Source: a virus. From it: 38,293 nt of DNA. The notes beneath the pieces were generated by a model. That model ran no database searches. It was not told where the DNA came from and was given only the letters and a program-made list of their open reading frames with translations. Below, piece by piece: positions 2,379 to 20,291 of the stretch; position 1 is the stretch's first letter, and the number at the start of each line of letters is the position of its first letter. The translations under genes were made by a program, and so were the position numbers. The DNA lies in the IMG/VR virus record IMGVR_UViG_3300044618_000855, positions 1 through 38,293 of that record. One strand, 5' to 3'.

Positions 2379-3914
2379 ATGGACATCTTCAAGACGCTGT
2401 TGTTGGACACTCCCGTGTCCACGGCAATTAGTGGCACCGTAGCCGTCAATCAAGGTGGCACCGGGGCTACTACTGCCGCCGATGCGCGAGTTAATTTGCT
2501 GCCCTCTTATACGGGTAATGCAAATAAGGTGCTAAGCCTTAACTCTGGGGCAACGGATGTCGAGTGGACTACGAACGGTGCTGGCACCGTAACGAGTGTT
2601 GATCTCACGGCTGGTACGGGCATTAGCGTGTCTGGTGGGCCAATTACTTCCACGGGCAGCATTACCGTAACCAACACGGCTCCAGACCAAACGGTGGTTC
2701 TTACGGCGAGCACGGGCATCTCGACTTCTGGGACTTATCCCAACTTCACGATTACCAATTCTGCGCCAGATCAGACAGTGGTTCTAACGCAGGGCGGCAC
2801 CACCACCATCACGGGAACCTACCCCAACTTTACGATTTCGTCTGCCGATCAATATAAGGGTACGGTAACTAGTGTTGATTTCTCTGGTGGCACTACGGGC
2901 CTAACGGTTTCTGGCAATCCGATTACCAGCAGCGGAACCATCACCCTTGCTGGTACGTTGGCGGTAGCCAATGGCGGCACGGGCCTAACCTCTGGCACGT
3001 CTGGCGGTGTTTTGGCCTTTACGGCAAGCGGCACCCTAGCCTCGTCCAGCGCATTGGCGTCCAATGCCATTGTTGTTGGCGGCGGTGCTGGAGCCGCGCC
3101 ATCCACCATCACTACGGGTACTGGCGTTGTCACCGCTCTAGGGGTCAATACAGGCACGGCTGGCGCGTTTGTGGTTAATGGTGGTGCTTTGGGTACTCCT
3201 AGCTCGGGAACGGTTACCAATCTCACGGGAACGGCCTCTATCAACATCAATGGAACCGTAGGCGCGACCACCGCTAACACGGGCGCGTTTACAACGCTTT
3301 CTGCGTCTAGCACGGTGAGTGGTACGGGTTTTTCTACCTACCTCGCCTCGCCTCCTGCAATCGGCGGTACTGCTCCTGCGGCTGGTAAGTTTACGACCCT
3401 TGAGGCTACGGGTGTTACCACCGTCTCTGCTGGCACCGTTTCGGCCCCAGCTATCACCACTACGGGAGATACCAACACGGGCATCTTCTTCCCGGCGGCT
3501 GACAACATGGCCTTTACGGAGGGTGGTGTAGAAGTCTTTCGTATTGAGTCCAATGGTCGTTTTGGACTTGGACAAACCTCCCCGGCCACCAAGTTTGACC
3601 TGTCTGGCAACTATGGTCAGAATATTGTAGCTGTCGCCGCACTCGACATTGATTGCTCGGCTGGTAACTACTTCACCAAGACGATCAACGCAAACAGCAC
3701 GTTCACGTTTTCAAACGCTCCGGCCTCTCGCTCTTATGCGTTCGCTCTTGAACTGACGCACACGTCAGGCACCGTGACTTGGCCGACCGCTGTGAAGTGG
3801 CCCAAGGATACGGCCCCAACTCTGACCACGGGCAAAACCCACATCTTTATCTTTGTAACTGACGATGGTGGCACACGCTGGCGCGGTGCTGCACTTGTAG
3901 ACTACGTTAACTAA
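2379..3914 (+). CDS. tail fibre protein 1 (repetitive beta fibre)
   Basis: This 511-residue protein is very rich in Thr, Gly, Ser, Val and Ala. It carries repeated motifs such as GTVTSVD, GTYPNFTI, APDQTVVL and ANGGTG, typical of trimeric phage fibre shafts. Near residues 310-350 is a block (FTTLSASSTVSG, STYLASPPAIGG) found twice or more in the second fibre at 7287-8078. A stretch with TTTGDTNTGIFFP and GLGQTSPA is common in aquatic phage fibres. The last about 95 residues, from LDIDCSAGNYFTKTI to WRGAALVDYVN, are a domain almost the same as the end of the second fibre, and probably form the receptor-binding or trimerising tip. Confidence 0.88.
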   Translation: MDIFKTLLLDTPVSTAISGTVAVNQGGTGATTAADARVNLLPSYTGNANKVLSLNSGATDVEWTTNGAGTVTSVDLTAGTGISVSGGPITSTGSITVTNTAPDQTVVLTASTGISTSGTYPNFTITNSAPDQTVVLTQGGTTTITGTYPNFTISSADQYKGTVTSVDFSGGTTGLTVSGNPITSSGTITLAGTLAVANGGTGLTSGTSGGVLAFTASGTLASSSALASNAIVVGGGAGAAPSTITTGTGVVTALGVNTGTAGAFVVNGGALGTPSSGTVTNLTGTASININGTVGATTANTGAFTTLSASSTVSGTGFSTYLASPPAIGGTAPAAGKFTTLEATGVTTVSAGTVSAPAITTTGDTNTGIFFPAADNMAFTEGGVEVFRIESNGRFGLGQTSPATKFDLSGNYGQNIVAVAALDIDCSAGNYFTKTINANSTFTFSNAPASRSYAFALELTHTSGTVTWPTAVKWPKDTAPTLTTGKTHIFIFVTDDGGTRWRGAALVDYVN

Positions 3915-3919
3915 TATCT

Positions 3920-5029
3920 ATGGATCCTAACGTTATCAAACTTGCGATGGGTGCTGGTGGCGCTGGTGAGAAAGAGTATGACCTGTATGCTTGGGGATAT
4001 AACGGACTTGGTCAACTTGGCCTTGACGACACAACCAGCCGTTCATCACCAGTACAAGTCGGTGCATTAACAACATGGGACAAAGTTGCGTCCGGCAGGC
4101 TCCACAGCATAGCGATTAAAACGGATAGGACGTTGTGGATTTGGGGGCTTAACAACTTCGGTCAACTCGGCCTAGGAGATGTAACCGATCGTTCATCTCC
4201 TGTACAAGTTGGAGCGTTAACAACGTGGAACAACGTTGCGGGTGGCTTTAGTCACACAATAGCCACTAAAACCGATGGGACATTGTGGGCTTGGGGGTTT
4301 AACAGCTTAGGTCAACTCGGCCTAGGAGATGTAACCGATCGTTCATCTCCTGTACAGGTTGGAGCGTTAACTACTTGGAGTAAAGTTGCCTGTGGCAAAG
4401 AACACAACATAGCCACTAAGACAGACGGAACATTGTGGGCTTGGGGGTATAATTTTCGCGGTCAACTGGGCTTAGGAAACACAAGCAATCGTTCGTCTCC
4501 GGTACAAGTTGGGGCGTTGACAACATGGAGTAATATTGCGTGTGGTCGCCTTCATACCATAGCCACTAAGACAGACGGAACTTTGTGGGCTTGGGGACGT
4601 AACAACTATGGTCAACTTGGCCGAGGAACCACAGCAGACTATTCATCACCACTTCAAGTTGGTTCGTTAACAACATGGGACAAAGTTGCGTGTGGTCGCT
4701 ACCACACAATAGCCACCCAAACGGACGGCACGTTGTGGGCTTGGGGGCGTAACAACTTCGGCCAACTTGGCCTTGAAGATGTAACCAGTCGTTCGTCTCC
4801 TGTTCAAGTTGGTGCATTAACAACATGGAACAAAGTTCAAAGTGGAGATGCAAACATTATAGCCACTAAAACTGACGGAACATTATGGGGTTGGGGAAGT
4901 AACATCCAAGGCCAACTAGGTATAGGAACTACAACCAATCGTTCGTCTCCTGTTCAAGTTGGTGCATTAACGACTTGGAAAAACATAGCGTGTGGGTACT
5001 CACACACCATCGCCACTACAGAGGAGTAG
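3920..5029 (+). CDS. RCC1-repeat beta-propeller protein (seven blades), putative receptor-binding tip
   Basis: The 369-residue protein has a short Gly-rich start and then seven 50-residue repeats, each with WxWGxNxxGQLG, SSPVQVGALTTW, and GxxHxIATKTDGTL. Seven blades match the usual number in the RCC1 propeller fold. Fold-typical Gly, His and Trp positions are kept in nearly all blades; blade 6 lacks the His (DANIIATK). RCC1 repeats mediate protein or ligand binding and occur sporadically in bacteria and phages. The gene begins five bases after the first fibre and precedes the sulfotransferase fusion. A tail-tip adhesin is the best guess. Its base composition looks more AT-rich than the capsid genes. 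Confidence 0.85.
   Translation: MDPNVIKLAMGAGGAGEKEYDLYAWGYNGLGQLGLDDTTSRSSPVQVGALTTWDKVASGRLHSIAIKTDRTLWIWGLNNFGQLGLGDVTDRSSPVQVGALTTWNNVAGGFSHTIATKTDGTLWAWGFNSLGQLGLGDVTDRSSPVQVGALTTWSKVACGKEHNIATKTDGTLWAWGYNFRGQLGLGNTSNRSSPVQVGALTTWSNIACGRLHTIATKTDGTLWAWGRNNYGQLGRGTTADYSSPLQVGSLTTWDKVACGRYHTIATQTDGTLWAWGRNNFGQLGLEDVTSRSSPVQVGALTTWNKVQSGDANIIATKTDGTLWGWGSNIQGQLGIGTTTNRSSPVQVGALTTWKNIACGYSHTIATTEE
3986..5020 (+). repeat. seven tandem 150-bp coding repeats (RCC1 blades)
   Basis: The period is exactly 150 bases from one Trp codon pair to the next. Some copies are nearly identical at DNA level: the segment from about 4158 to 4222 recurs at about 4308 to 4372 with only a couple of changes, including third-codon positions. 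This indicates recent duplication or gene conversion between blades, and makes blade-number variation by recombination possible. Confidence 0.9.
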
Positions 5030-5072: not shown

Positions 5073-6851
5073 GTGAACAACAACTTGACCAAGAAGCTGC
5101 ACTTCTTGTCTGGCCTGCCGCGTTCTGGATCAACGGTACTTGCGGCAATTCTTAACCAGAATCCGCAAACGCACGTTTCAACTACCTCTGGTCTTGGTGC
5201 TGCGCTTGATGCGTTGGCAACAACGTGGCACCGCGAGCCGCTGCTAGAAAAGAACGACCGCGACCGGAAGAAACTAGCCAACGCAATGCGTGGCTTGATT
5301 CACGGGTACTACGACGAGATCACGTCGAAGCCCGTTGTGATTGATAAGGCACGCAATTGGCCGCTCCCAGTAGTTGTATCTGCAATGGCTCAAGTGCTAG
5401 GCCACAAACCGCGTATCATCGCCACCGTTCGTAGCGTGCCAGACTGCATGGCATCGTTCGTCCGCGTAGCAAAGCCAGAAAACCTAGACGACTTCATCCA
5501 GCAGTCAGGACTTACGGCGCACCTAAAATCGTCCTATCAGGTCTTGCAGGCTGGCTATCAAGCCGACCCAGAGTGCTTCCTATTCGTAGAATACGAAGAC
5601 CTTTTAGCTGATCCGCGAACTCAGCTCAAACGCATCCATAACTTCCTTGGTCTTGATCCGTTTGAGTACGATCTAGAGCGCATTGACGGCTCTACCGTCA
5701 AGGAGGACGACGAGGGAATTCATGGCGTAGCTGGCCTACACGACATTAAGCCCAAGCTGGCTAGGCAGCACAATGAATCGGCAAAGGATATTCTCGGCTA
5801 CCACTACGGGCAATTTTGCCAGCCTGAGTTTTGGCTCCCAAAGCCGCGCACTATTGTTCCTTTAGACGATCTTGATCTACAGCTTGCAGCCTCTACAATG
5901 GGCAACTTTGAGGAAGGCAAGCGCATTGCTGAAAAACTCAAGGCAGAGCGTTCCAATGACCACCGCGCAGCCTACAACCGTGGCTGGTACGAACTGCGTG
6001 ATGGCAACATTGAAGAGGGCTACAAGCTCCTTCATCGTGGACGCAAGGTAGGTGTATTTGGCAATAGTCAACCGAAAAGTCCGCAGCCTGAGTGGAATGG
6101 TAGCAGCGGCCACACCATCCTGCTTCAGCTAGAGGGCGGCTTGGGAGATCAGCTTCACCAGCTACGCTACACCCGCAATCTGCGGTCAAACGGTTACAGT
6201 CCTATCGTTAGCTGCTCTGGTGAGCTAGTGCCATTTATCGCCTCTACGGAACTGGCTGATGCCGTAGTGCAGCATGGCGCGGAATATGGGGTATTCCACG
6301 ACTATTGGATGTCTGGAATGTCTAGCCCTATGTACCTCGGGCTAAACCGTAGATCCATCCAAGGAGACGCATACATCCACACCGACTTTACTGTTCCCAA
6401 TAAGAAGCTTCGGATAGGTTTGCGCTGGTCTGGCAACAAGACCTTTGAGGCCCAACATCACAAGCTGTTCCCAGCCCAGTTGTTTTTTGATGCCGTCAAA
6501 CGCGACGACGTAGAGTTCATCTCCCTCCAGCGGGATGCCGACCTAGAGTTTAAGCCTAGCTGGGTGCAGGATGTTCCCCTTCAGACATGGCATGACACCC
6601 ACAAGGCAGTTAGCTCCTGCGACCTAGTAATTAGCTCCTGCACGTCCGTAAGCCATCTTTCTGCGGCTATGGGGGTTCCCACTTGGGTTGTCATCCCAAT
6701 TATGGGGTATTATCTGTATGCCGAACCCGGCAATAAAACGCCCTATTACAACTCTATGCGGTTGTTTCGCCAACAGAAGTATGGCGATTGGACCCACCCT
6801 TTTGAAGAAATTAAGAGCCTAAACTATTCCCATGAACTACTGCTTCGTTGA
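5073..6851 (+). CDS. sulfotransferase - TPR - glycosyltransferase (GT9/GT41-like) fusion protein
   Basis: This is a 592-residue, GTG-started protein. Residues 1-260 form a P-loop-like sulfotransferase: the 5'-phosphosulfate loop is LSGLPRSGST (12-21), the 3'-phosphate motif is RIIATVRSVPDCMASFVR (114-131), and YEDLLADPRTQL (174-185) is typical of the family. Such enzymes move sulfate from PAPS to sugars or proteins. Residues about 268-330 look like one or two TPR helices pairs. Residues about 345-590 resemble the GT-B fold: LEGGLGDQLHQL (353-364), GLRWSGNKTFE (449-459), and CDLVISSCTSVSHLSAAMG (516-534), the nucleotide-sugar site of GT9 and GT41 enzymes. No good ribosome site precedes it. It could modify host glycans or the phage fibre. 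Confidence 0.85.
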   Translation: MNNNLTKKLHFLSGLPRSGSTVLAAILNQNPQTHVSTTSGLGAALDALATTWHREPLLEKNDRDRKKLANAMRGLIHGYYDEITSKPVVIDKARNWPLPVVVSAMAQVLGHKPRIIATVRSVPDCMASFVRVAKPENLDDFIQQSGLTAHLKSSYQVLQAGYQADPECFLFVEYEDLLADPRTQLKRIHNFLGLDPFEYDLERIDGSTVKEDDEGIHGVAGLHDIKPKLARQHNESAKDILGYHYGQFCQPEFWLPKPRTIVPLDDLDLQLAASTMGNFEEGKRIAEKLKAERSNDHRAAYNRGWYELRDGNIEEGYKLLHRGRKVGVFGNSQPKSPQPEWNGSSGHTILLQLEGGLGDQLHQLRYTRNLRSNGYSPIVSCSGELVPFIASTELADAVVQHGAEYGVFHDYWMSGMSSPMYLGLNRRSIQGDAYIHTDFTVPNKKLRIGLRWSGNKTFEAQHHKLFPAQLFFDAVKRDDVEFISLQRDADLEFKPSWVQDVPLQTWHDTHKAVSSCDLVISSCTSVSHLSAAMGVPTWVVIPIMGYYLYAEPGNKTPYYNSMRLFRQQKYGDWTHPFEEIKSLNYSHELLLR

Positions 6852-7275
6852 AAACGGCGTTATTGCCGATGGCCCCCGTGGACTTCCCCGTTCATGGCGT
6901 AATATCTCTGGCCTTGACCAGATGGATGATGATGGGCTTCGAGAGCTTGGTTGGCTTCCAGTACGCCTTGTGGAAGGTGATGTTCAGGAGAAGTTTGTTG
7001 GCTCTATATTTGCCATTCTTCCTAGTGAGGTGGTAGAGACTAAGATTTGGCGTTCGTACACCCCTGAAGAGCAGGCCGAGATTGATAGCCAGAAGGCTAA
7101 GCAAGTCCGCTCTGAGCGTAATACCAAGCTAACTGAGTGCGATTGGACCCAGCTTAACGACACGCCGCTGGACAATACCGCCAAGATTCAATGGACGGCC
7201 TACCGTCAGGCTCTCCGCGATGTTCCCTCTCAGGCAGGGTTTCCGCATAATGTAGTTTGGCCCACAAAGCCTTGA
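6832..7275 (+). CDS. tail fibre assembly chaperone-like protein
   Basis: The 147-residue protein starts 20 bases inside the preceding gene, so its translation may depend on it. Its C-terminal half has the recognisable tail-assembly pattern: a charged helix RSERNTKLTECDWTQL, then LDNTAKIQWTAYRQALRDV and FPHNVVWPTKP. This is the arrangement of phage tail-assembly chaperones (pfam Phage_tail_APC type) that are encoded next to fibres and help their trimerisation. It lies directly before the second fibre, supporting that job. The N-terminal half is less conserved and may bind the specific fibre. Confidence 0.8.
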   Translation: MNYCFVENGVIADGPRGLPRSWRNISGLDQMDDDGLRELGWLPVRLVEGDVQEKFVGSIFAILPSEVVETKIWRSYTPEEQAEIDSQKAKQVRSERNTKLTECDWTQLNDTPLDNTAKIQWTAYRQALRDVPSQAGFPHNVVWPTKP

Positions 7276-7286
7276 TATACTAAGTC

Positions 7287-8078
7287 ATGGCTCAAATTCA
7301 AAAAGGCACCACCTACGGGACGACCTCGCCGTCGAACCTAGTTAGCTCGACCAATCTCAATAATCATGTTGATGATGCGGTGCTTTTGCCGGGAGCCATT
7401 ACCGATCAAACTGCCAAGGTGGTTCTTGCTGCGGCTGACACCGTATTGGTTCATAGCTCAGCCGATACGGCTTTGCGAAAAACCACGATGGCTCAGGTGT
7501 TTGCAACCCCACAGCCTATTGGTTCTAGCACAGCTAGTTCTGGTGCGTTTACCACGCTAAGTGCATCTTCAACTGTTAGCGGAACTGGATTTTCTACCTA
7601 CCTAGCATCTCCCCCAGCTATTGGCGGAACTGCTGCTGCTGCTGGTTCTTTTACGACCCTTAGCGCATCAAGCACAGTAAGCGGAAACGGATTCTCTACA
7701 TATTTAGCTTCACCACCAGCAATTGGTACAACTACTGCGGCTGCTGGCAAATTTACGAGCCTTGAGGCAACAGGGCAGTACAAGGGGTCGGTTACGGCCA
7801 TCACCCTTCTGGATATTGATTGCTCGGCTGGCAACTACTTCACGAAGACCATTAACGGCAATTCCACCTTTACGTTCAGCAACGTACCCAGCGGCGCGTA
7901 TGGCATGATTGTGGAGATCGAAAATACGTCCGGCACCATCACTTGGCCTGCTGCGGTTAAGTTTCCCAATGACACAGCTCCTACGCTTAGCACGGGCAAG
8001 ACCCATGTTTTCGTGTTCATCACGGACGATAGCGGTAGCCGTTGGCGTGGTGTGGCTGCGGTAAATTACGTTACTTAA
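7287..8078 (+). CDS. tail fibre protein 2, paralogue of fibre 1
   Basis: The product has 263 residues. A short N-terminus with TYGTTSPSNLV and DDAVLLPGAITDQT precedes two to three copies of a 36-residue block (FTTLSASSTVSG, STYLASPPAIG) and ends in the same about 95-residue domain as fibre 1, from LDIDCSAGNYFTKTI to GVAAVNYVT. The DNA of the two C-terminal domains is also alike, with long runs of identity around 7812-7840 and 3645-3675. A TGATATACT element (7273-7281) resembles an extended -10 box directly before the start. It probably forms a short side fibre or an alternative receptor-binding protein. Confidence 0.85.
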   Translation: MAQIQKGTTYGTTSPSNLVSSTNLNNHVDDAVLLPGAITDQTAKVVLAAADTVLVHSSADTALRKTTMAQVFATPQPIGSSTASSGAFTTLSASSTVSGTGFSTYLASPPAIGGTAAAAGSFTTLSASSTVSGNGFSTYLASPPAIGTTTAAAGKFTSLEATGQYKGSVTAITLLDIDCSAGNYFTKTINGNSTFTFSNVPSGAYGMIVEIENTSGTITWPAAVKFPNDTAPTLSTGKTHVFVFITDDSGSRWRGVAAVNYVT

Positions 8079-9670: not shown

Positions 9671-11857
9671 ATGGCACGTTACAGCAGCTTTAGTGGCCGG
9701 GATACGCCTATTGCCGAGACGGCAGATATTGGCTTTTCCCGATTTAACAACCGCCTCCGTCCTGACCAATTGCAGGCCGGGGAGCTTGCTATGTCCGTCA
9801 ATGGACGGATGAACGTGGATGGGACGTGGCAGGTGCGTCCCGGCGTAGATACGTTTGGCCCTGTTATTGGAACGAAGGACGAGACGCTTGCTCTGCCGTT
9901 CTATTTGTGGCCGCAAGTGGTTATTAGCTCGGCCACCCGCAGCGGCACGACGGTAACCATCACTACGTCAACCAATCACGGTTTCTCGTCGTCCTACGCT
10001 GTTGCTATTGTAGATGTTGGCCCCGGCACGGTGGACCCCAACGGCAACAAGACCATCACCGTTACTGGCCTTAATACGTTTACCTACACGATTGCTGGTG
10101 CCACCGGAAGCGAGACCTACTCAGTTACTGCTAGCTCTAAGGCTGGTGGAGCTATCCTCGGAACCAGCAGCATCAACGGAGCTTTCGGCTCATGCCTGTT
10201 CTCAAATCCCGCATCGAACAACGACGAGTACATCATCCTCGCTCTGTTCTCGAACGCCATCGCTATCAACATGGCGACCAAGGCAACGACGACGATTGCC
10301 TACCCTTCTGGCATCTTCATTTCACAACCCGTGAATATGCTGCAAGCCTTCAACAAGGTTTTTATATTCCGCGACGGGGCTACGGCTCTGCAATGGAATG
10401 GCAGCTTTAGCGGCACGCCAGCTTTTACGAAGGTGGCTAATGGAGCATACGCGGCAACCACCTATTTGGATTCAAACAACAACACCGTAATTGCAAACGG
10501 TATTGTAACGGTTAGCGAAACGGCTCACGGTTTTTCGGTTGGGGACAGGATTCATGTTGTTGATAAAGGAAGTTCTACTCTTGTTGAGCAAGAGGAGGGG
10601 TATGTTATTGCTACGGTAGCAGACGCCAATACCTTTACTTTCTACGCTGAAGTTCCCGATCTAACTTCGCATAAGGTGGTGTACGCCAAGAAGCAGCCGT
10701 CCCAGCTTGGCTTCACGCATATGCCAGCCCCGGCGTGGGGCGTCTACCACCAGCGGCGTTTGATTGTCCCCTATTACTACAACACCACGGGCAGCAGCGG
10801 CAGCGAAACAATTACGGACCGGAACGTCAGGGATGAAATCCTGCTATCGGACGTATTCGACTCTGACACTTATGACCGCATCCAGAACCAGCTAAAGGTT
10901 ACGGCTGGGATTGCGGACTATCTCCAGTATGTTCACCCATTTACTGAGGATAACGCTGTTATCTTCAACCGCAATTCGATCCATCTAATGCTCGGGCTGA
11001 GCGGATCTATTGCGGATATTTCTTTGAAGGAAATCACCCGTGAGGCAGGGTTGGTGGCGCAGAAGAGTGTGGTTACGATTGGCGACCGCATCTTCTTCCT
11101 GTCTGACAACGGCGTCTACTCCACGTCCTTCCAAGACTTGTACAACCTTCGTGGCGCGGGGCTACCCCTGTCTGACCCGATTAACCCGCTCATCAAGCGG
11201 ATCAATCCAGACTACGCCCACAACGCTGTAGCAATCTACCACGACAATCGCTATTGGATTGCAGTACCACTAGATAACAGTCCGCGCAACAATGCCATCC
11301 TTGTCTACAACCTGTTGAATCAGGGCTGGGAGAGTTTGGACATCATCGACCAAGAGGGCTGGGACATCAGCAACCTCATCGTGTCTGGGGCTGGCGGCAT
11401 CAACAAGCTCTATGCCGTCAACCGCTTTGGTGGCGTGCATACCATCGATGAGCGTGTGGATGGATTCGACTACATCTACACGGTTCCCGGCGGCGACTCT
11501 ATCCCGTACCCGATTGAGTCAGAGGTAGTTACCCGCCAGTATGTCTTTGACGACGTTGGCCGTAAGAGCTTCAATGCCTACGAGGTTCACGTTGAAAGCT
11601 CTGAGTATGAGCCTAGCGATGCGGACATCACTATGATTTCCGAGAACATCGACAAGGAAGCCCCGATGTACTCATTGGCTGAAAGTCTTGAGGAAGACCT
11701 GCCTATTGGCGAGGATAGCTCTGTCCGTGGCCGTATTGGCAACATCCGCGCCTACGGAATGCAGCTAAAGTTTGTCCCAACCAAGGGCCGTCCCAAGCTC
11801 CGTATGGTGAAGCTAGAAGCCTATCAAGCCTTCCGCTCTGTTACTGAAGCATCATAA
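9671..11857 (+). CDS. tail nozzle / stabilisation protein (tail tubular protein B-like)
   Basis: The 728-residue protein begins with a pattern typical of podoviral nozzle proteins: INxRxxxDQLQAGELAMSVN then a strand WQVRPGVDTFG. The middle and end (about 350-650) have propeller-like strands: AWGVYHQRRLIVPYYY, QYVHPFTEDNAVIFN, GDRIFFLSDNGVYS, and NDRYWIAVPLDN-like HDNRYWIAVPL. Two inserted beta modules are seen: residues about 85-155 (SSATRSGTTVT to SETYSVT), closely like the insert in the adaptor, and about 270-335 (ANGIVTVSETAHGFSVGDRIHV). It would form the lower tail tube under the adaptor. Its stop overlaps the next start by one base. Confidence 0.78.
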   Translation: MARYSSFSGRDTPIAETADIGFSRFNNRLRPDQLQAGELAMSVNGRMNVDGTWQVRPGVDTFGPVIGTKDETLALPFYLWPQVVISSATRSGTTVTITTSTNHGFSSSYAVAIVDVGPGTVDPNGNKTITVTGLNTFTYTIAGATGSETYSVTASSKAGGAILGTSSINGAFGSCLFSNPASNNDEYIILALFSNAIAINMATKATTTIAYPSGIFISQPVNMLQAFNKVFIFRDGATALQWNGSFSGTPAFTKVANGAYAATTYLDSNNNTVIANGIVTVSETAHGFSVGDRIHVVDKGSSTLVEQEEGYVIATVADANTFTFYAEVPDLTSHKVVYAKKQPSQLGFTHMPAPAWGVYHQRRLIVPYYYNTTGSSGSETITDRNVRDEILLSDVFDSDTYDRIQNQLKVTAGIADYLQYVHPFTEDNAVIFNRNSIHLMLGLSGSIADISLKEITREAGLVAQKSVVTIGDRIFFLSDNGVYSTSFQDLYNLRGAGLPLSDPINPLIKRINPDYAHNAVAIYHDNRYWIAVPLDNSPRNNAILVYNLLNQGWESLDIIDQEGWDISNLIVSGAGGINKLYAVNRFGGVHTIDERVDGFDYIYTVPGGDSIPYPIESEVVTRQYVFDDVGRKSFNAYEVHVESSEYEPSDADITMISENIDKEAPMYSLAESLEEDLPIGEDSSVRGRIGNIRAYGMQLKFVPTKGRPKLRMVKLEAYQAFRSVTEAS

Positions 11858-12201
11858 TGAAACCAATCTATGAGGCTAAGAAAATAGCCTTAGAGGCCGG
11901 GAAGAACTTTGAAGAAGAGCTGGCGTTTTACCTAGAACACGGCGGGGTTATAAGCCTTCCAGATAGGTTTATAATGGGTAGGGCAATCCAGCTTAGTTTG
12001 GGCGAAGATGTTATCAATCCCCCCAATCCAGATTGCTGGTATGTTCATTGTGCGGTGGGCAAGAATTCCGCCTTATGGTTTTGTAACCAAGCCCCATTTA
12101 GACTGCCTTACCTAGCTTGGCGCAGGAATAACGATGAAAGTGGTACACTAAGGGTGTACAATACGGACACCGTTGAAAGACTTGCTCGTTCATCTAATTA
12201 A
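11857..12201 (+). CDS. hypothetical protein between nozzle and ejection genes
   Basis: The 114-residue protein has a helical N-terminus (IYEAKKIALEAGKNFEEELAF), then LEHGGVISLPDRFIMGRAI and a short Cys/Trp-rich segment (DCWYVHCAVGKN, ALWFCNQAPF). It overlaps the nozzle stop by one base (TAATG) and ends five bases before the first ejection gene. No family is recognised. The place in the tail block suggests a minor virion or assembly protein. A small alpha/beta catalytic domain is possible given the conserved-looking Cys and His, but no active site can be named. Confidence 0.72.
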   Translation: MKPIYEAKKIALEAGKNFEEELAFYLEHGGVISLPDRFIMGRAIQLSLGEDVINPPNPDCWYVHCAVGKNSALWFCNQAPFRLPYLAWRRNNDESGTLRVYNTDTVERLARSSN

Positions 12202-12206
12202 ATATC

Positions 12207-14156
12207 ATGGGTAGCCCAAGAATTCCAGCACCTCCTCCAGCCCCCGCCCCTGTCGATCCCGGCAAGGCTGCATTAGACTATGTTCGGGGCATGGCCGACC
12301 CAGAGCTTCAGAAGCTATTGCTGGAGTCTGAGCAGACATATAGGCCGCAATACACCAAGCTTAACCTTGATGAGCTAGCTCAGTACACTTTTGGTATTCC
12401 CGGTGAAGAGGGAAAGCCGGGAACCCGTGGAACGCTTGATATTCTGCGAGATGTTACGCCAGAAATTACCAAGATTGATACATTGGCTAATACGGCTCTT
12501 CGTGAGGCCGATATTGAGGACATTAACAAGCTTGGTCAAAAAGCAAGGGATGCATTTCGTAAAGCAAACCCAGAAGCTTTTGCTGCTTTAGAGGCGGCTG
12601 GCAAACTTGGTGGTCCAACAGACTACTTTAAGGACTTGGAAACGGCGATGCAAAATCGCCGTATTTTTGGGGATGTTAATTTTACCCCAGCAGAAGCCTC
12701 AATGATTGAGGCATTGCAGGGAGTAAACCTTGGAGGATATTCGCCGGAACGTGCTGCCGCTTCTTTGCTTGGTGCTGCTCCAACCGTTGGCTCACAAGGT
12801 TATGGTGCTGAAGGGTTTGCTGCTCAGGGATATGGATCTCAAGGGTATGATGCTGCGCGAGCCGCCCGTGTTGCTGATGTAGCAGCACAAACAATTGGAC
12901 AGGGAGCACTTGGAGGATCTTTATATGGACAAGCATTGGAAACGGCCCCTACGGAAGCTTCTGAAACCTTTCGTCGCCGTGCTGCGGAAATGGCCCTTGC
13001 TACGGGTCAACTCTCTTCTGAAGAGATTCGTAACGCGCAGCAAGCGACTCGCGAAGCTTTTGCTGCTCGTGGATTAGAAATGAGCAATCAGGCCATTGCT
13101 GCTGAAGCTATGGCCCGTTCTGATGCTGTTGCTCAACGTCAGGCTTCTCAGTTGCAACAAGCTGCCGCTCTTAATCAGGCTTACCTTGCCGACCTTAACG
13201 CCAGCCGTGGGTTTGCTACGGGCGTATATGGTCAGGATCTTGGCCGTTTGCAGGCAAATCAAGATGCTGCTTTGCGTTCTGCGTTAGCTAATCAAGCTGC
13301 CGGGCTTCAGCTTTCTGCCGCCGATCAAGCGGCGATTAATAGGGCGCGTGAATTTGGAGCAATGTCGGCTAATGAGGCTGCTCGATTTAGTGCTGCTGCA
13401 GCAAATGAAGCTGCGCAGTTTGGTGCTGCATCCCGTAATGAGGCCGCTCGTTTTGGAGCTACTGCTGCCAATGAGGCATCCCGTATTAATGCGGATTTGA
13501 TGGCTCGTTATGCGATGGCGAACCAAGGCGCACTAAATGCGTTTAGCGCAGCCAATATGGCGGCTGGCAATGAAGCAGCTCGTTTTGCCGCAGAACAGGC
13601 TAACCGCGGAGCTTTGGCTAATCTAGATGTAGAGGCTAAGCGGCGTGCAGAAAATGCTGCGGCCATGAACCGTTTTGCTGAGTTTAATAAGCTCAACGAA
13701 ATGGAGACGCTGATGGCAAATCGTGCCTTTTCAGCAGATCAGCAGGCTAAGGCGTTGGAACAGCTCCGTGTCCTTGGAAGTGAACGTATGCGCGAGATGG
13801 GCGCAAATCGTGGATTTAGTCTTGATGTTGCTGGAGCCTACGGCGGTATGTCTTTTGATCCGATGATGGCTATTCTTGGCCGTTCCTCTGGTGCTTCGCG
13901 TGCTGCTGCTGGAGAACGTGGTGCTGCTGCTGGAATGATGGACGCTTTTGGTGGCAACCTGTTTAATCCTGACGCCGGAATTAATCTTGCCCTATCTAAT
14001 ACGGCAAATCAAGGCAACTATCTTGCTAACACCTACGCAGCCAATGTATCGGCTAAGGCGGCAGTTAGTGCTGCTAAACTTGGTGCAGTTAGTAAGCTGG
14101 TTGGTTCCGCTATTCCGTTTATTCCGGGGGTCGGCGAAAAGAGTGGGGGCGGTTAA
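12207..14156 (+). CDS. internal virion (ejection) protein, Ala-rich coiled coil
   Basis: This 649-residue protein starts with a Pro/Ala-rich segment (IPAPPPAPAPVDPG) and is then mostly long Ala-rich helices. Near residues 205-220 are short repeats SQGYGAEGFAAQGYGSQGY; near 385-460 are repeated NEAARFGA / NEAAQFGA units of about 11 residues, a heptad-like coiled-coil array. A Gly/Ala-rich hydrophobic C-terminus (KLVGSAIPFIPGVG) might insert into membranes. The first of three large genes between nozzle and module end, it matches the usual place of podoviral ejection proteins, which leave the capsid and form a channel through the host envelope. Confidence 0.75.
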   Translation: MGSPRIPAPPPAPAPVDPGKAALDYVRGMADPELQKLLLESEQTYRPQYTKLNLDELAQYTFGIPGEEGKPGTRGTLDILRDVTPEITKIDTLANTALREADIEDINKLGQKARDAFRKANPEAFAALEAAGKLGGPTDYFKDLETAMQNRRIFGDVNFTPAEASMIEALQGVNLGGYSPERAAASLLGAAPTVGSQGYGAEGFAAQGYGSQGYDAARAARVADVAAQTIGQGALGGSLYGQALETAPTEASETFRRRAAEMALATGQLSSEEIRNAQQATREAFAARGLEMSNQAIAAEAMARSDAVAQRQASQLQQAAALNQAYLADLNASRGFATGVYGQDLGRLQANQDAALRSALANQAAGLQLSAADQAAINRAREFGAMSANEAARFSAAAANEAAQFGAASRNEAARFGATAANEASRINADLMARYAMANQGALNAFSAANMAAGNEAARFAAEQANRGALANLDVEAKRRAENAAAMNRFAEFNKLNEMETLMANRAFSADQQAKALEQLRVLGSERMREMGANRGFSLDVAGAYGGMSFDPMMAILGRSSGASRAAAGERGAAAGMMDAFGGNLFNPDAGINLALSNTANQGNYLANTYAANVSAKAAVSAAKLGAVSKLVGSAIPFIPGVGEKSGGG

Positions 14157-18700: not shown

Positions 18701-19308
18701 GTAATCTATCTGAAGATCAGATGGCTTATGCCTCTGGTAAGCGACGTGCATTAACGGAACAAGACGCTCAGGATGTCTATAATACTTTTGAGCGTCGCTA
18801 TCAGAATACCTTTAACCGTGCTACTGAGTTGGTTGCTGATGGTCGAGCTATTGGCCTAGAAGATGATGACTTGGTTACGCTAATGAAAGCTGGTCGCATT
18901 CCAAGTTCTATTGCTCTCGGTGCAATTACTGGAGTGTATGTTCCTCCTGCTGTGGAAGAACAGAATCCTACTCGCGTTATCTACGAGAAGATTGAAAGCC
19001 TGCCAGAGAATCAGCGCAGGGCTGCTGTCGAGAAGGCTGCTCGCGAGAACCCAACCATTGGTCGCAATCTAATCAACCGCTATCGCCAAGACCTACGCAA
19101 CAAGGCGTTGAACATCAGCGAAGTGGACAAGCTGCTGTTGTCTCAGGATGAGGCCGATGGAGACCGTGCTCGCTTCATCTTCCAGAAGATGCAGACGCTA
19201 CCAGATGACCTGATGCGTACTGCCTACTTGGAAGATCTGCGCAAGAAGCGAGTGATTACCCCTGTGGTTAACGCGCAGCTTAACCTGTTGATGAACCCGC
19301 CCCGTTAG
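15796..19308 (+). CDS. large internal virion (ejection) protein with Gly-rich hydrophobic segments
   Basis: This is the longest gene, 1170 residues. The N-terminus (YRVTDSKTGVTLNLTGDSPPTEEELEEIF) is a short module I recall from large virion proteins of other podoviruses. Residues about 55-105 and 135-205 hold Gly/Ala-rich hydrophobic stretches (GGALAGAAAGASIGAAL, GAIIGGVVGGLGGN) suited to membrane insertion. The rest is helical, ending in a basic tail region. Unlike T7 gp16 there is no transglycosylase motif at the N-terminus. It should form part of the channel for DNA entry. Its stop overlaps the convergent phosphoesterase stop by four bases, ending the late unit. Confidence 0.78.
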   Translation: MPTYRVTDSKTGVTLNLTGDSPPTEEELEEIFSQYSANPEKEEDSKMSSVARIAADIGIETGGALAGAAAGASIGAALAPASFGASVPVGAIIGGVVGGLGGNTIVQRGQIERGERPEFSYGELAATGLLSAIPGGTGAKAGTSLARNLALRSTQGAALGGAAEITKTVIDQNRLPTAQEFLTATIFGGAMGGAVGGAEKGISKAISLTPEAKLGKLMPVIKRVAGEQSALAFEGEVAVRNLKDALGDIKDKVERDRISSVAFDVLEGRPHSTNLPKPVADAVSQVRGTIDTLSETLQDRGVVEPGSGLYNTITDNLGQYIRRSYRAINSDWKPSAEVFNRWVDTKVREDLEQRLRTRMANNIIIGRNKIVEGKPFNIQTYYNKLKSEFEPELRQKYINEASKLLDRDNSFAFAIGDKAKVDTNIFKQRKNLDAVTRELLGEIKDPVYAASNTINMMTKTQAVHEVNKQIRDVGLQAGLFRTNARQMAEGMAPDVELSTDQSNYNPLKGLYTTPEIREAFRSMTSETTSKLAERFGIIASASAAVKLPKTLGSLKGYASNLWGGVMDTLAQGHGLEFFRTNNWKRAGQVAGYNLGFIRPDGTVDNKEATEFFKFVRREGLVAPNVQFGDFMRTFEAGEKSVAAALPKEVLDRGKKGIQLLGKIYSTPETASKVFNLAGEFADLSKAFPNQSKQELLKQAAERVKLTTQDYDSLPRFLKDFSSIGFLDPFVAYTADRFRVVYNTYKLGMRDLASDNAALRLAGAKRLASMTAVLGGAGYVAANTNLTPEQDKALRNRMPEWDRNGFVSISSPGADGSFKYTNLNYNLPHSSAIEAMTAAMRGQNPEEAFTNFMTSIGNQAFGANLLLAPLSQVVSGKNRYGLPISSENEPLYRQTFDRSTYFMGQTMMPLVVGEVRKFFNALDKSGEKIVTPAGDTYGVKEIMLENLAGIREKTINIGDRMRLNASIISRNLSEDQMAYASGKRRALTEQDAQDVYNTFERRYQNTFNRATELVADGRAIGLEDDDLVTLMKAGRIPSSIALGAITGVYVPPAVEEQNPTRVIYEKIESLPENQRRAAVEKAARENPTIGRNLINRYRQDLRNKALNISEVDKLLLSQDEADGDRARFIFQKMQTLPDDLMRTAYLEDLRKKRVITPVVNAQLNLLMNPPR

Positions 19309-19317
19309 TTTAGGGCG
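19298..19317. terminator. weak hairpin at the convergence of the two operons
   Basis: CGCCC (19298-19302) and GGGCG (19313-19317) can pair across the overlapping stop codons of the late and early units. There is no T run on either strand, so this is at best a weak or factor-dependent site. No other terminator lies between the two operons, and read-through antisense RNA is likely. Confidence 0.3.
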
Positions 19318-20291
19318 CGGCCATTAACGATACGGTAGTTAGCCACCTCGTAATAGCTGCCGTCTAGGGTGACGATGGCAGACCCGTGGTTATAGCTGTT
19401 GTATGGGCTATAAGCGGGGTGCAGGTCCGAGAGGCACCCTACGCTCCAAGTGGTGGTCATCGTCCCGTCTAGGGCCGTTTCCGTGTGCTCTGAGGTACGG
19501 TGATGGTGGCCGACCATGACACTCTGCTTGGCCTTCAGATAGGCTCCGCGAGCAGGATTCACCGGGGGTGCGAAGCCCTTGTGGAACTCATGTCCATGCA
19601 TCACAGCTAGTCCACCCAGCATGATGATGCGCTTGTCGGTGACATACTCAATGTCGAGATCCTCAAAGTTGAGTAGCTTGTCGATGGAGAAGAACTTCTC
19701 ATCATACACCTCGGGAGCCTTCTGCATCATGTAAGCCTTGAAGCGGTCCTCATGGTTGCCGTCGCGCCACACAATGCGCTGATGAGGAAACTGCTCCCGT
19801 AGATAGGCCAGTAGCTCGTTCGTGGTCTCCCGCTCTTGTTTGAAGGATCGAGCGCGGGGATCTCGGATGAACTGAGAAAGGGCATGGCAGTCGATGGTGT
19901 CGCCGTTGAGGATGATCCCGTCCACCTCCTGCTTCTTAGCACGCTTCACCGCGCACTCAATGGCCTCTTCCGTATGATAGGGAACGTGGATGTCAGACAG
20001 GATAGCCACCTTCTCCACCCCGTCCATGATGAAGGGGGACCAAGCGCGGGTGCAGGACTTGGGGATCTTGTACTTGGGCGTGACGTTCTCATCCAGCCCA
20101 ACACTCTTACGCTTCTTGTCACCGTTGGCTCCACGACGATAGCGGATTGCGCTCCGCACCACATCTTGACTGGTGAAGACAGTTGGGTTCTCTTTGTAAA
20201 TCATGCGAGCCAACTGGTTGCTTGGCAGATCGGGATAAAGCCTAAGTGCTACGTCTACAATTTCGGATCCAATGGGGTTTTGTGTGCTCAT
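19305..20291 (-). CDS. calcineurin-like metallophosphoesterase
   Basis: The 328-residue protein has all metal-binding motifs of the family in order: SDIH (D100, H102), GDTID (130-134), GNHED (179-182 region), HGHE (232-235), and GHHH (261-264). These bind two metal ions and hydrolyse phosphodiesters or phosphomonoesters. The first about 90 residues are extra: a helical region (DVALRLYPDLPSNQLARMI, TSQDVVRSAIRYRRG) that looks like a DNA-binding HTH. It is the last gene of the early operon and overlaps the upstream gene by four bases. A role in nucleic-acid processing is likely; the substrate is unknown. Confidence 0.9.
   Translation of the reverse strand: MSTQNPIGSEIVDVALRLYPDLPSNQLARMIYKENPTVFTSQDVVRSAIRYRRGANGDKKRKSVGLDENVTPKYKIPKSCTRAWSPFIMDGVEKVAILSDIHVPYHTEEAIECAVKRAKKQEVDGIILNGDTIDCHALSQFIRDPRARSFKQERETTNELLAYLREQFPHQRIVWRDGNHEDRFKAYMMQKAPEVYDEKFFSIDKLLNFEDLDIEYVTDKRIIMLGGLAVMHGHEFHKGFAPPVNPARGAYLKAKQSVMVGHHHRTSEHTETALDGTMTTTWSVGCLSDLHPAYSPYNSYNHGSAIVTLDGSYYEVANYRIVNGRALN

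Follow-up and report, generated by a model that had tools for sequence, protein, structure and literature searches.

A seven-bladed RCC1 propeller in a phage tail-fibre cassette: a probable receptor-binding disc with a linked sulfotransferase gene

The RCC1 gene and its tail-fibre cassette

The DNA analysed here (the window, in full) spans 38,293 bases and represents a phage genome whose two ends share the same 127 bases; matches to a terminase, a major head protein, a replicative helicase and an exonuclease are present in it. A phage contig of the same type (L206) was binned with a Betaproteobacteria genome, which gives a weak hint at the host. The features of the RCC1 locus are listed in Table 1.

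Table 1. Features of the RCC1 locus, in window coordinates
Feature	Position	Strand	Description
FIB1, tail-fibre-like protein	2379..3914	+	C-terminal domain matches phrog_9017 (tail fiber protein)
RCC1 propeller gene	3920..5029	+	369 aa, seven blades
N-terminal peptide, residues 1-22	3920..3985	+	short helix at residues 3-9 (low confidence), then Gly-rich linker
Blade unit 1	3986..4135	+	residues 23-72
Hypervariable loop 1 codons, blade 1	3998..4009	+	unit positions 5, 7, 8 (Asn at position 6 conserved); repeated every 150 nt in blades 2-7
Hypervariable loop 2 codons, blade 1	4097..4102	+	unit positions 38, 39, aligned with UVR8 GWRHT residues W,R; repeated every 150 nt
Blade unit 2	4136..4285	+	residues 73-122
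Blade unit 3	4286..4435	+	residues 123-172
Blade unit 4	4436..4585	+	residues 173-222
Blade unit 5	4586..4735	+	residues 223-272
Blade unit 6	4736..4885	+	residues 273-322
Blade unit 7	4886..5020	+	residues 323-367; 45 residues; fourth strand probably from the N-terminus
Enzyme linked to RCC1	5073..6851	+	sulfotransferase half 5073-5837; TPR/glycosyltransferase-like half 5838-6848
Tail-fibre assembly chaperone (TFA)	6832..7275	+	Phage_tail_APC
FIB2, second fibre protein	7287..8078	+	C-terminal domain family shared with FIB1

As expected of a receptor-binding protein, the RCC1 protein is encoded within the tail/fibre module. The initial annotation had placed its gene between two fibre genes; FIB1 is indeed directly upstream, but the sulfotransferase gene and the chaperone separate the RCC1 gene from FIB2. 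Across relatives, FIB1 has conserved ends and a variable middle. In a scan that used a head protein, not RCC1, as query, an RCC1 gene occupied this slot in all 23 loci showing both FIB1 and the chaperone (L009 and 22 of L066-L130), and the order fibre, RCC1, transferase is found as in the window on a 2.76-Mb Planctomycetota contig (L214). Elsewhere in the window, positions 11857-14156 also change fast, the products of 11857-12201 and 12207-14156 being ~47-60% identical in relatives such as L003, beside a gene (9671-11857) that is 97-99% identical in the same relatives. A metallo-phosphoesterase gene (phrog_221) lies at 19305-20291 on the minus strand, opposite to the structural genes.

Seven near-perfect 50-residue RCC1 repeats make up almost the whole protein, as had been noted from the sequence, and they are far beyond chance. 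Pfam RCC1 (PF00415) matches in 7 stretches (E 1.6e-91, 301 bits against a cut-off of 21.7) and WD40_RLD (PF25390) reaches 382 bits against a cut-off of 150. The units are exactly in register (50, 50, 50, 50, 50, 50 and 45 residues), with a direct-repeat spacing of 150 nt throughout. Adjacent blades had also been described as sharing long, almost identical DNA through recent duplication or conversion; this holds for short stretches only, because blade DNA is just 61-83% identical in pairwise comparisons. Exact identity extends over at most 47 nt in blades 2/3, 33 nt in 6/7, 25 nt in 1/5 and 24 nt in 3/4, and synonymous differences between blades are substantial (pS 0.28-0.72). Most of the array is therefore old, with recent homogenisation in places.

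An AlphaFold model built with 42 relatives is a seven-bladed RCC1 propeller of 28 strands (pLDDT 93.3, pTM 0.88), and the best PDB matches found by Foldseek are the propellers of UVR8, HERC2, RPGR and RCC1 (TM 0.86-0.89), which are solved closed rings. The first strand of the model is at residues 20-26 and the last three are at 341-368, so that, judged from strand order, the seventh blade probably receives its missing strand from the N-terminus. Structure prediction is in line with the closed propeller proposed earlier: seven four-stranded blades are predicted to form one closed ring. With repeats above cut-off and this ring, as predicted, the protein falls in the RCC1 propeller (RLD) superfamily. 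Its N-terminal peptide is conserved in the genus (MDP...LAMGA...; mean entropy 0.42 over residues 1-14 vs 1.20 in the blades) and is a possible anchor.

A variable face and exchanged alleles

Variability had been expected to concentrate in short loops between conserved strands, and the comparison of loop residues in related phages agrees, with change focused on the same five unit positions of one face in all seven blades. Entropy computed over the 22 non-redundant seven-blade proteins of the slot has its maxima at unit positions 5, 7, 8, 38 and 39, which coincide with the x positions of the RCC1 consensus. All 35 residues at these positions rank among the top 60 of 345 in variability, every blade shows the pattern, and none of 10,000 permutations reached the observed value. 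From the topology of a four-stranded meander, loops 5-18 and 37-39 would share one face, opposite to loops 25-30 and 46-49; mean loop entropy is 1.55 bits on the variable face vs 0.74 on the other (p 1.9e-6). Fast evolution focused on an exposed surface is a further property of receptor-binding proteins. Phage RCC1 proteins without the linked enzyme, and all other groups of phage RCC1, vary at the same positions.

Across 19 independent close pairs, the 35 positions have a pN/pS of 0.78, compared with 0.23 elsewhere. When ten sister pairs of our own choice from the close pairs were tested individually, the excess of change at the 35 positions was significant (p <0.01) in nine, with p 0.17 in L230/L244. 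The pair L143/L144 differs at 14 blade codons, all amino-acid changing and nine of them among the 35 positions (9/35 vs 5/309, p 5.9e-7); the flanks of L162/L154 are 98% identical, yet 29 of the 35 variable positions differ. Change at these positions thus appears recent and selected, and relaxed constraint may explain part of it, since pN/pS there is 0.78 overall.

Whole alleles are exchanged as well. In nine close relatives, pS is 0.47-0.77 in the RCC1 gene vs 0.03-0.15 in three upstream genes (those in view among 881, 1732 and 2050); because of this gap, fast substitution alone does not suffice and import of alleles is needed. Values for FIB1 (0.30-0.52), the enzyme (0.34-0.61) and the chaperone (0.19-0.47) were obtained in the same nine relatives, and a tenth phage compared (L129) is more distant throughout. 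Every locus of the genus in which the tail cassette is visible keeps the RCC1 gene, but with an exchanged allele.

Conversion from blade to blade did not hold up as the main source of diversity: shared loops are only weakly enriched, and largely in one pair. Loop motifs that diverge between sisters recur in another sister blade in 7/275 and 10/239 cases, vs ~1% in distant proteins, and 9 of these 17 recurring motifs come from L162/L154; blade shuffling as the main engine was rejected. Blade identity within a protein, compared with that between blades at the same position, is 0.80 vs 0.62 in L003 and 0.54 vs 0.60 in L075, so concerted evolution would fit some lineages and not others.

Blade number and the linked enzyme

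The comparison of blade number in related phages revealed quantisation in sevens. By HMM count, 220 of the 242 non-redundant, complete RCC1 ORFs from the retrieved loci have a multiple of seven blades (7 in 199, 14 in 15, 21 in 3, 28 in 2 and 35 in 1). Among the remaining 22 are ORFs with 4-6 blades (10), 11-13 (9), 20, 23 and 55, and no ORF of the 242 has 8-10 or 15-19 by this count. The largest is a single ORF of 2851 aa (L042, 1404-9959) with ~55 RCC1 blades, a number that its length allows, followed by an enzyme with only the glycosyltransferase-like (GT) half. For a 14-blade protein, AlphaFold with a two-row alignment gave pLDDT 33; the blade number would suggest two rings. Two natural one-blade deletions were found, each in a single contig and thus possibly an assembly or library artefact. 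L004 (319 aa) is identical to the window at 2276/2279 bases upstream and 2273/2273 downstream, and L161 (320 aa) is identical to L154 at 996/996 and 2380/2380 bases, its junction showing a 13-base overlap. L154 itself represents a seven-blade form that is present in 7 contigs (L154-L160) among the matches listed.

The gene that follows RCC1 in the window encodes a two-part enzyme. Its first half matches Pfam PF13469 (E 4.2e-17) and contains a PRSGST loop (P16-T21), presumably the PAPS-binding loop, that is invariant in 14 enzyme sequences; a Pfam domain with an invariant loop identifies it as a sulfotransferase. A profile match to protein-tyrosine sulfotransferases covers residues 5-190 (E 2e-6), and a polyketide sulfotransferase domain matches the enzyme as well or better (E 2e-7). 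The second half has a TPR-like start (a designed TPR matches weakly, E 1.2) and a transferase-like core. Searches with it returned no clear Pfam, NCBIfam (5/5 sequences) or PDB match and no PDB glycosyltransferase match, the only glycosyltransferase-family match being Glyco_transf_9 in L089 at E 0.12, below cut-off.

Linkage of this enzyme to RCC1 extends well beyond the slot, into phages that are not related to this one. Starting from RCC1, 57 non-slot loci (L008, L010-L065) were scanned: an enzyme homologue lies at 100 nt or less in 27 and at 3.2 kb or less in 13 more, and 17 have no enzyme, several of these ending at a contig edge. Starting from the enzyme, among the best 80 of 584 relatives, RCC1 adjoins it, often on both sides, in 39 of 40 non-redundant loci outside the slot, a count made after removal of redundant and same-genus loci in which some of those remaining (L134, L145) are probably same-genus fragments without a marker gene in view. 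In the sole exception (L170), 31 nt follow the enzyme before the locus ends; a fibre-like family is otherwise common to 32 of these 40 neighbourhoods. In the branch that has the GT half only, RCC1 is within 200 nt in 43 of 55 loci among the best 80 of 509 relatives, where no more than 514 nt precede the enzyme in 8 of the 12 misses and proteins of 14 and 28 blades are common beside it. On bacterial genome contigs, RCC1 accompanies the enzyme in 8 of 14 loci and is absent from L209 and from the five most distant (L215-L219). The number of independent lineages depends on the threshold: 174 loci form 14-33 clusters, two of them large, and a looser rule merged 202 of 211 loci. One contig titled as a Nomurabacteria MAG (L211, 1-13893) encodes three RCC1 proteins (7, 14 and 7 blades) next to a sulfotransferase/GT enzyme.

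Two cultured cyanophages have a similar arrangement. In S-SRM01, three RCC1 genes follow the gene for the distal subunit of the long tail fibre and adjoin genes for a TPR protein and a sulfotransferase, and BUCT-ZZ01 has a 14-blade protein between the tail fibre region and a transferase. We do not regard the linkage as chance, and the enzyme most likely acts on the host-recognition module, either the propeller or a fibre. Tyrosine makes up 13.7% of residues at variable positions beside the sulfotransferase enzyme vs 8.3% beside the GT-only enzyme (p 5e-6); sulfotyrosine on the propeller is nonetheless unsupported because RCC1 proteins without any enzyme (10 proteins) also have 13.9%.

Proposed function, alternatives and known systems

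The window RCC1 protein matches phrog_4219, and PHROGs places RCC1 families under DNA metabolism. W70_237-239, listed as phrog_4219, are reported from virions by mass spectrometry with 233, 196 and 141 spectra (PMC11370258), as was the RCC1 protein GAP_001 of GAP32 (PMC5259590). The phAPEC6 authors propose DNA condensing or packing from the name of the RCC1 domain (PMC7247149), and the W70 authors repeat the DNA-packing guess (PMC11370258). No virion proteomics for S-SRM01 came up in the sections of PMC8557907 covered. Searches of the open-access literature turned up no mention of a receptor-binding role for phage RCC1 or of its link to the enzyme.

We propose that the gene product is probably a tail receptor-binding disc of the virion whose diversity arises from selection and the replacement of alleles, with no retroelement involved, and that the enzyme most likely works on the same host-recognition module. 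This reading is favoured because a rigid repeated scaffold, one variable face, allele exchange and a position in the tail locus typify such proteins; the virion evidence cited above concerns distant RCC1 proteins that lack this enzyme. The closed seven-bladed propeller would be tethered by its short conserved N-terminal peptide. One face of the disc would bind to the surface of the host; there, each blade would present five freely varying residues in two loops, a total of ~35, set on a framework that is rigid and conserved. Specificity would change when recombination between the flanking conserved genes replaces the whole allele, and selected substitutions at the variable positions may shift it further. 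Unequal recombination between blades would occasionally delete one blade, and the neighbouring sulfotransferase/TPR-transferase would modify the propeller or a fibre. The linked enzyme gene, the allele swapping and the quantised blade number go beyond the initial annotation.

A DNA-condensing or internal virion protein, as guessed from the RCC1 name by the phAPEC6 and W70 authors and in keeping with the PHROGs category, seems very unlikely to us given that the gene sits within a tail-fibre cassette and that the same five positions vary on one face with the rest conserved. The RCC1 genes of S-SRM01 also come after a long-tail-fibre distal gene, and RCC1 propellers are found fused to tail-related domains: one ORF of L044 (7989-10451) joins an RCC1 propeller to Mtd_N (PF18454) and tail-fibre families, and L191 encodes an RCC1-fn3-RCC1 fusion with minor-tail matches, both in agreement with a receptor-binding role. 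It is somewhat less improbable, but still unlikely, that the variable positions are merely the unconstrained surface of an otherwise structural tail protein. An aggregate pN/pS below 1 (0.78) and variability at these positions in all phage RCC1 groups would fit; loops on the other face are conserved, however, amino-acid change at the variable positions is well above synonymous change in L143/L144 and L162/L154, and the allele is exchanged as a whole.

As to what produces the diversity, a diversity-generating retroelement (DGR) of the kind that serves Mtd was considered, since 29 of the 35 variable codons differ between L154 and L162 and almost every variable codon of this pair has C as its third base, the outcome expected of AAC-templated mutagenesis. 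We give this almost no credence: neither the window genome nor any of 21 related records (several of them fragments) contains a reverse transcriptase, the window has no second blade copy that could be a template repeat (best match 13 nt), and the third bases of its variable codons are mixed. The C-ending codons of L154/L162 do resemble DGR output, and no reverse transcriptase is known from the genus. More weight, although short of an even chance, goes to an enzyme that acts on the host surface and not on the phage adhesin, by receptor masking or superinfection exclusion, the pair then recognising and altering the same receptor. Gene linkage is compatible with either substrate, and the S-SRM01 cluster holds further sugar-related genes; against this, the protein-tyrosine sulfotransferase match and the TPR-like stretch (E 1.2) hint at protein substrates, and in the genus the type of enzyme tracks blade number, with GT-only enzymes beside the 14-blade proteins of L088, L089, L090, L108 and L126.

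Returning to a tail disc served by its own enzyme, we tentatively extend the proposal, as a speculation, to many phage lineages: strings of seven-bladed RCC1 propellers (1 to ~8 rings) could act as antibody-like discs with ~35 exchangeable residues per ring and a dedicated sulfating or glycosylating enzyme, the face being diversified both genetically and chemically. If these proteins are tail adhesins, many RCC1 annotations as DNA metabolism or DNA condensers need to change, and the host range of many uncultured phages might be readable from ~35 residues. With blades counted in sevens, ring closure becomes visible as a rule of selection, and modification of virion proteins becomes directly testable through the linked enzyme, for example in cultured S-SRM01. 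The disc suggested for this freshwater phage contrasts with the DNA-packing role assumed in the literature.

The RCC1 proteins of W70, GAP32, phAPEC6, 121Q and S-SRM01 share RCC1 repeats and PHROG families with the window protein. The arrays of E. coli jumbo phages differ in having no such enzyme alongside in their annotation and much more diverged repeats, too diverged in L304-L308 for unit alignment, so that these were left out of the blade analysis. In 121Q, slurp01, Sharanji and PBECO4 (L304-L307), the arrays are tandem, with ~ten RCC1-type genes in an arrangement that differs between relatives, and that of 121Q holds short gene fragments. With Mtd and other DGR-diversified receptor-binding proteins the phage propeller shares a rigid scaffold with exchangeable surface residues, whereas no reverse transcriptase or template repeat was found for it. 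The linked enzyme resembles tyrosylprotein sulfotransferases (TPST) in the profile match and the invariant PRSGST loop, and differs in being fused to a TPR/GT-like half. UVR8, HERC2, RPGR and RCC1 have the same seven-bladed fold, which does not imply a photoreceptor or GEF role; compared with these eukaryotic domains, the phage protein is far more regular (50 aa per blade) and is encoded in a tail locus. The GWRHT motif of UVR8, whose Trp and Arg sit at the UVR8 dimer interface, aligns with unit positions 37-41, and it is exactly at these two residues that the phage protein is hypervariable.
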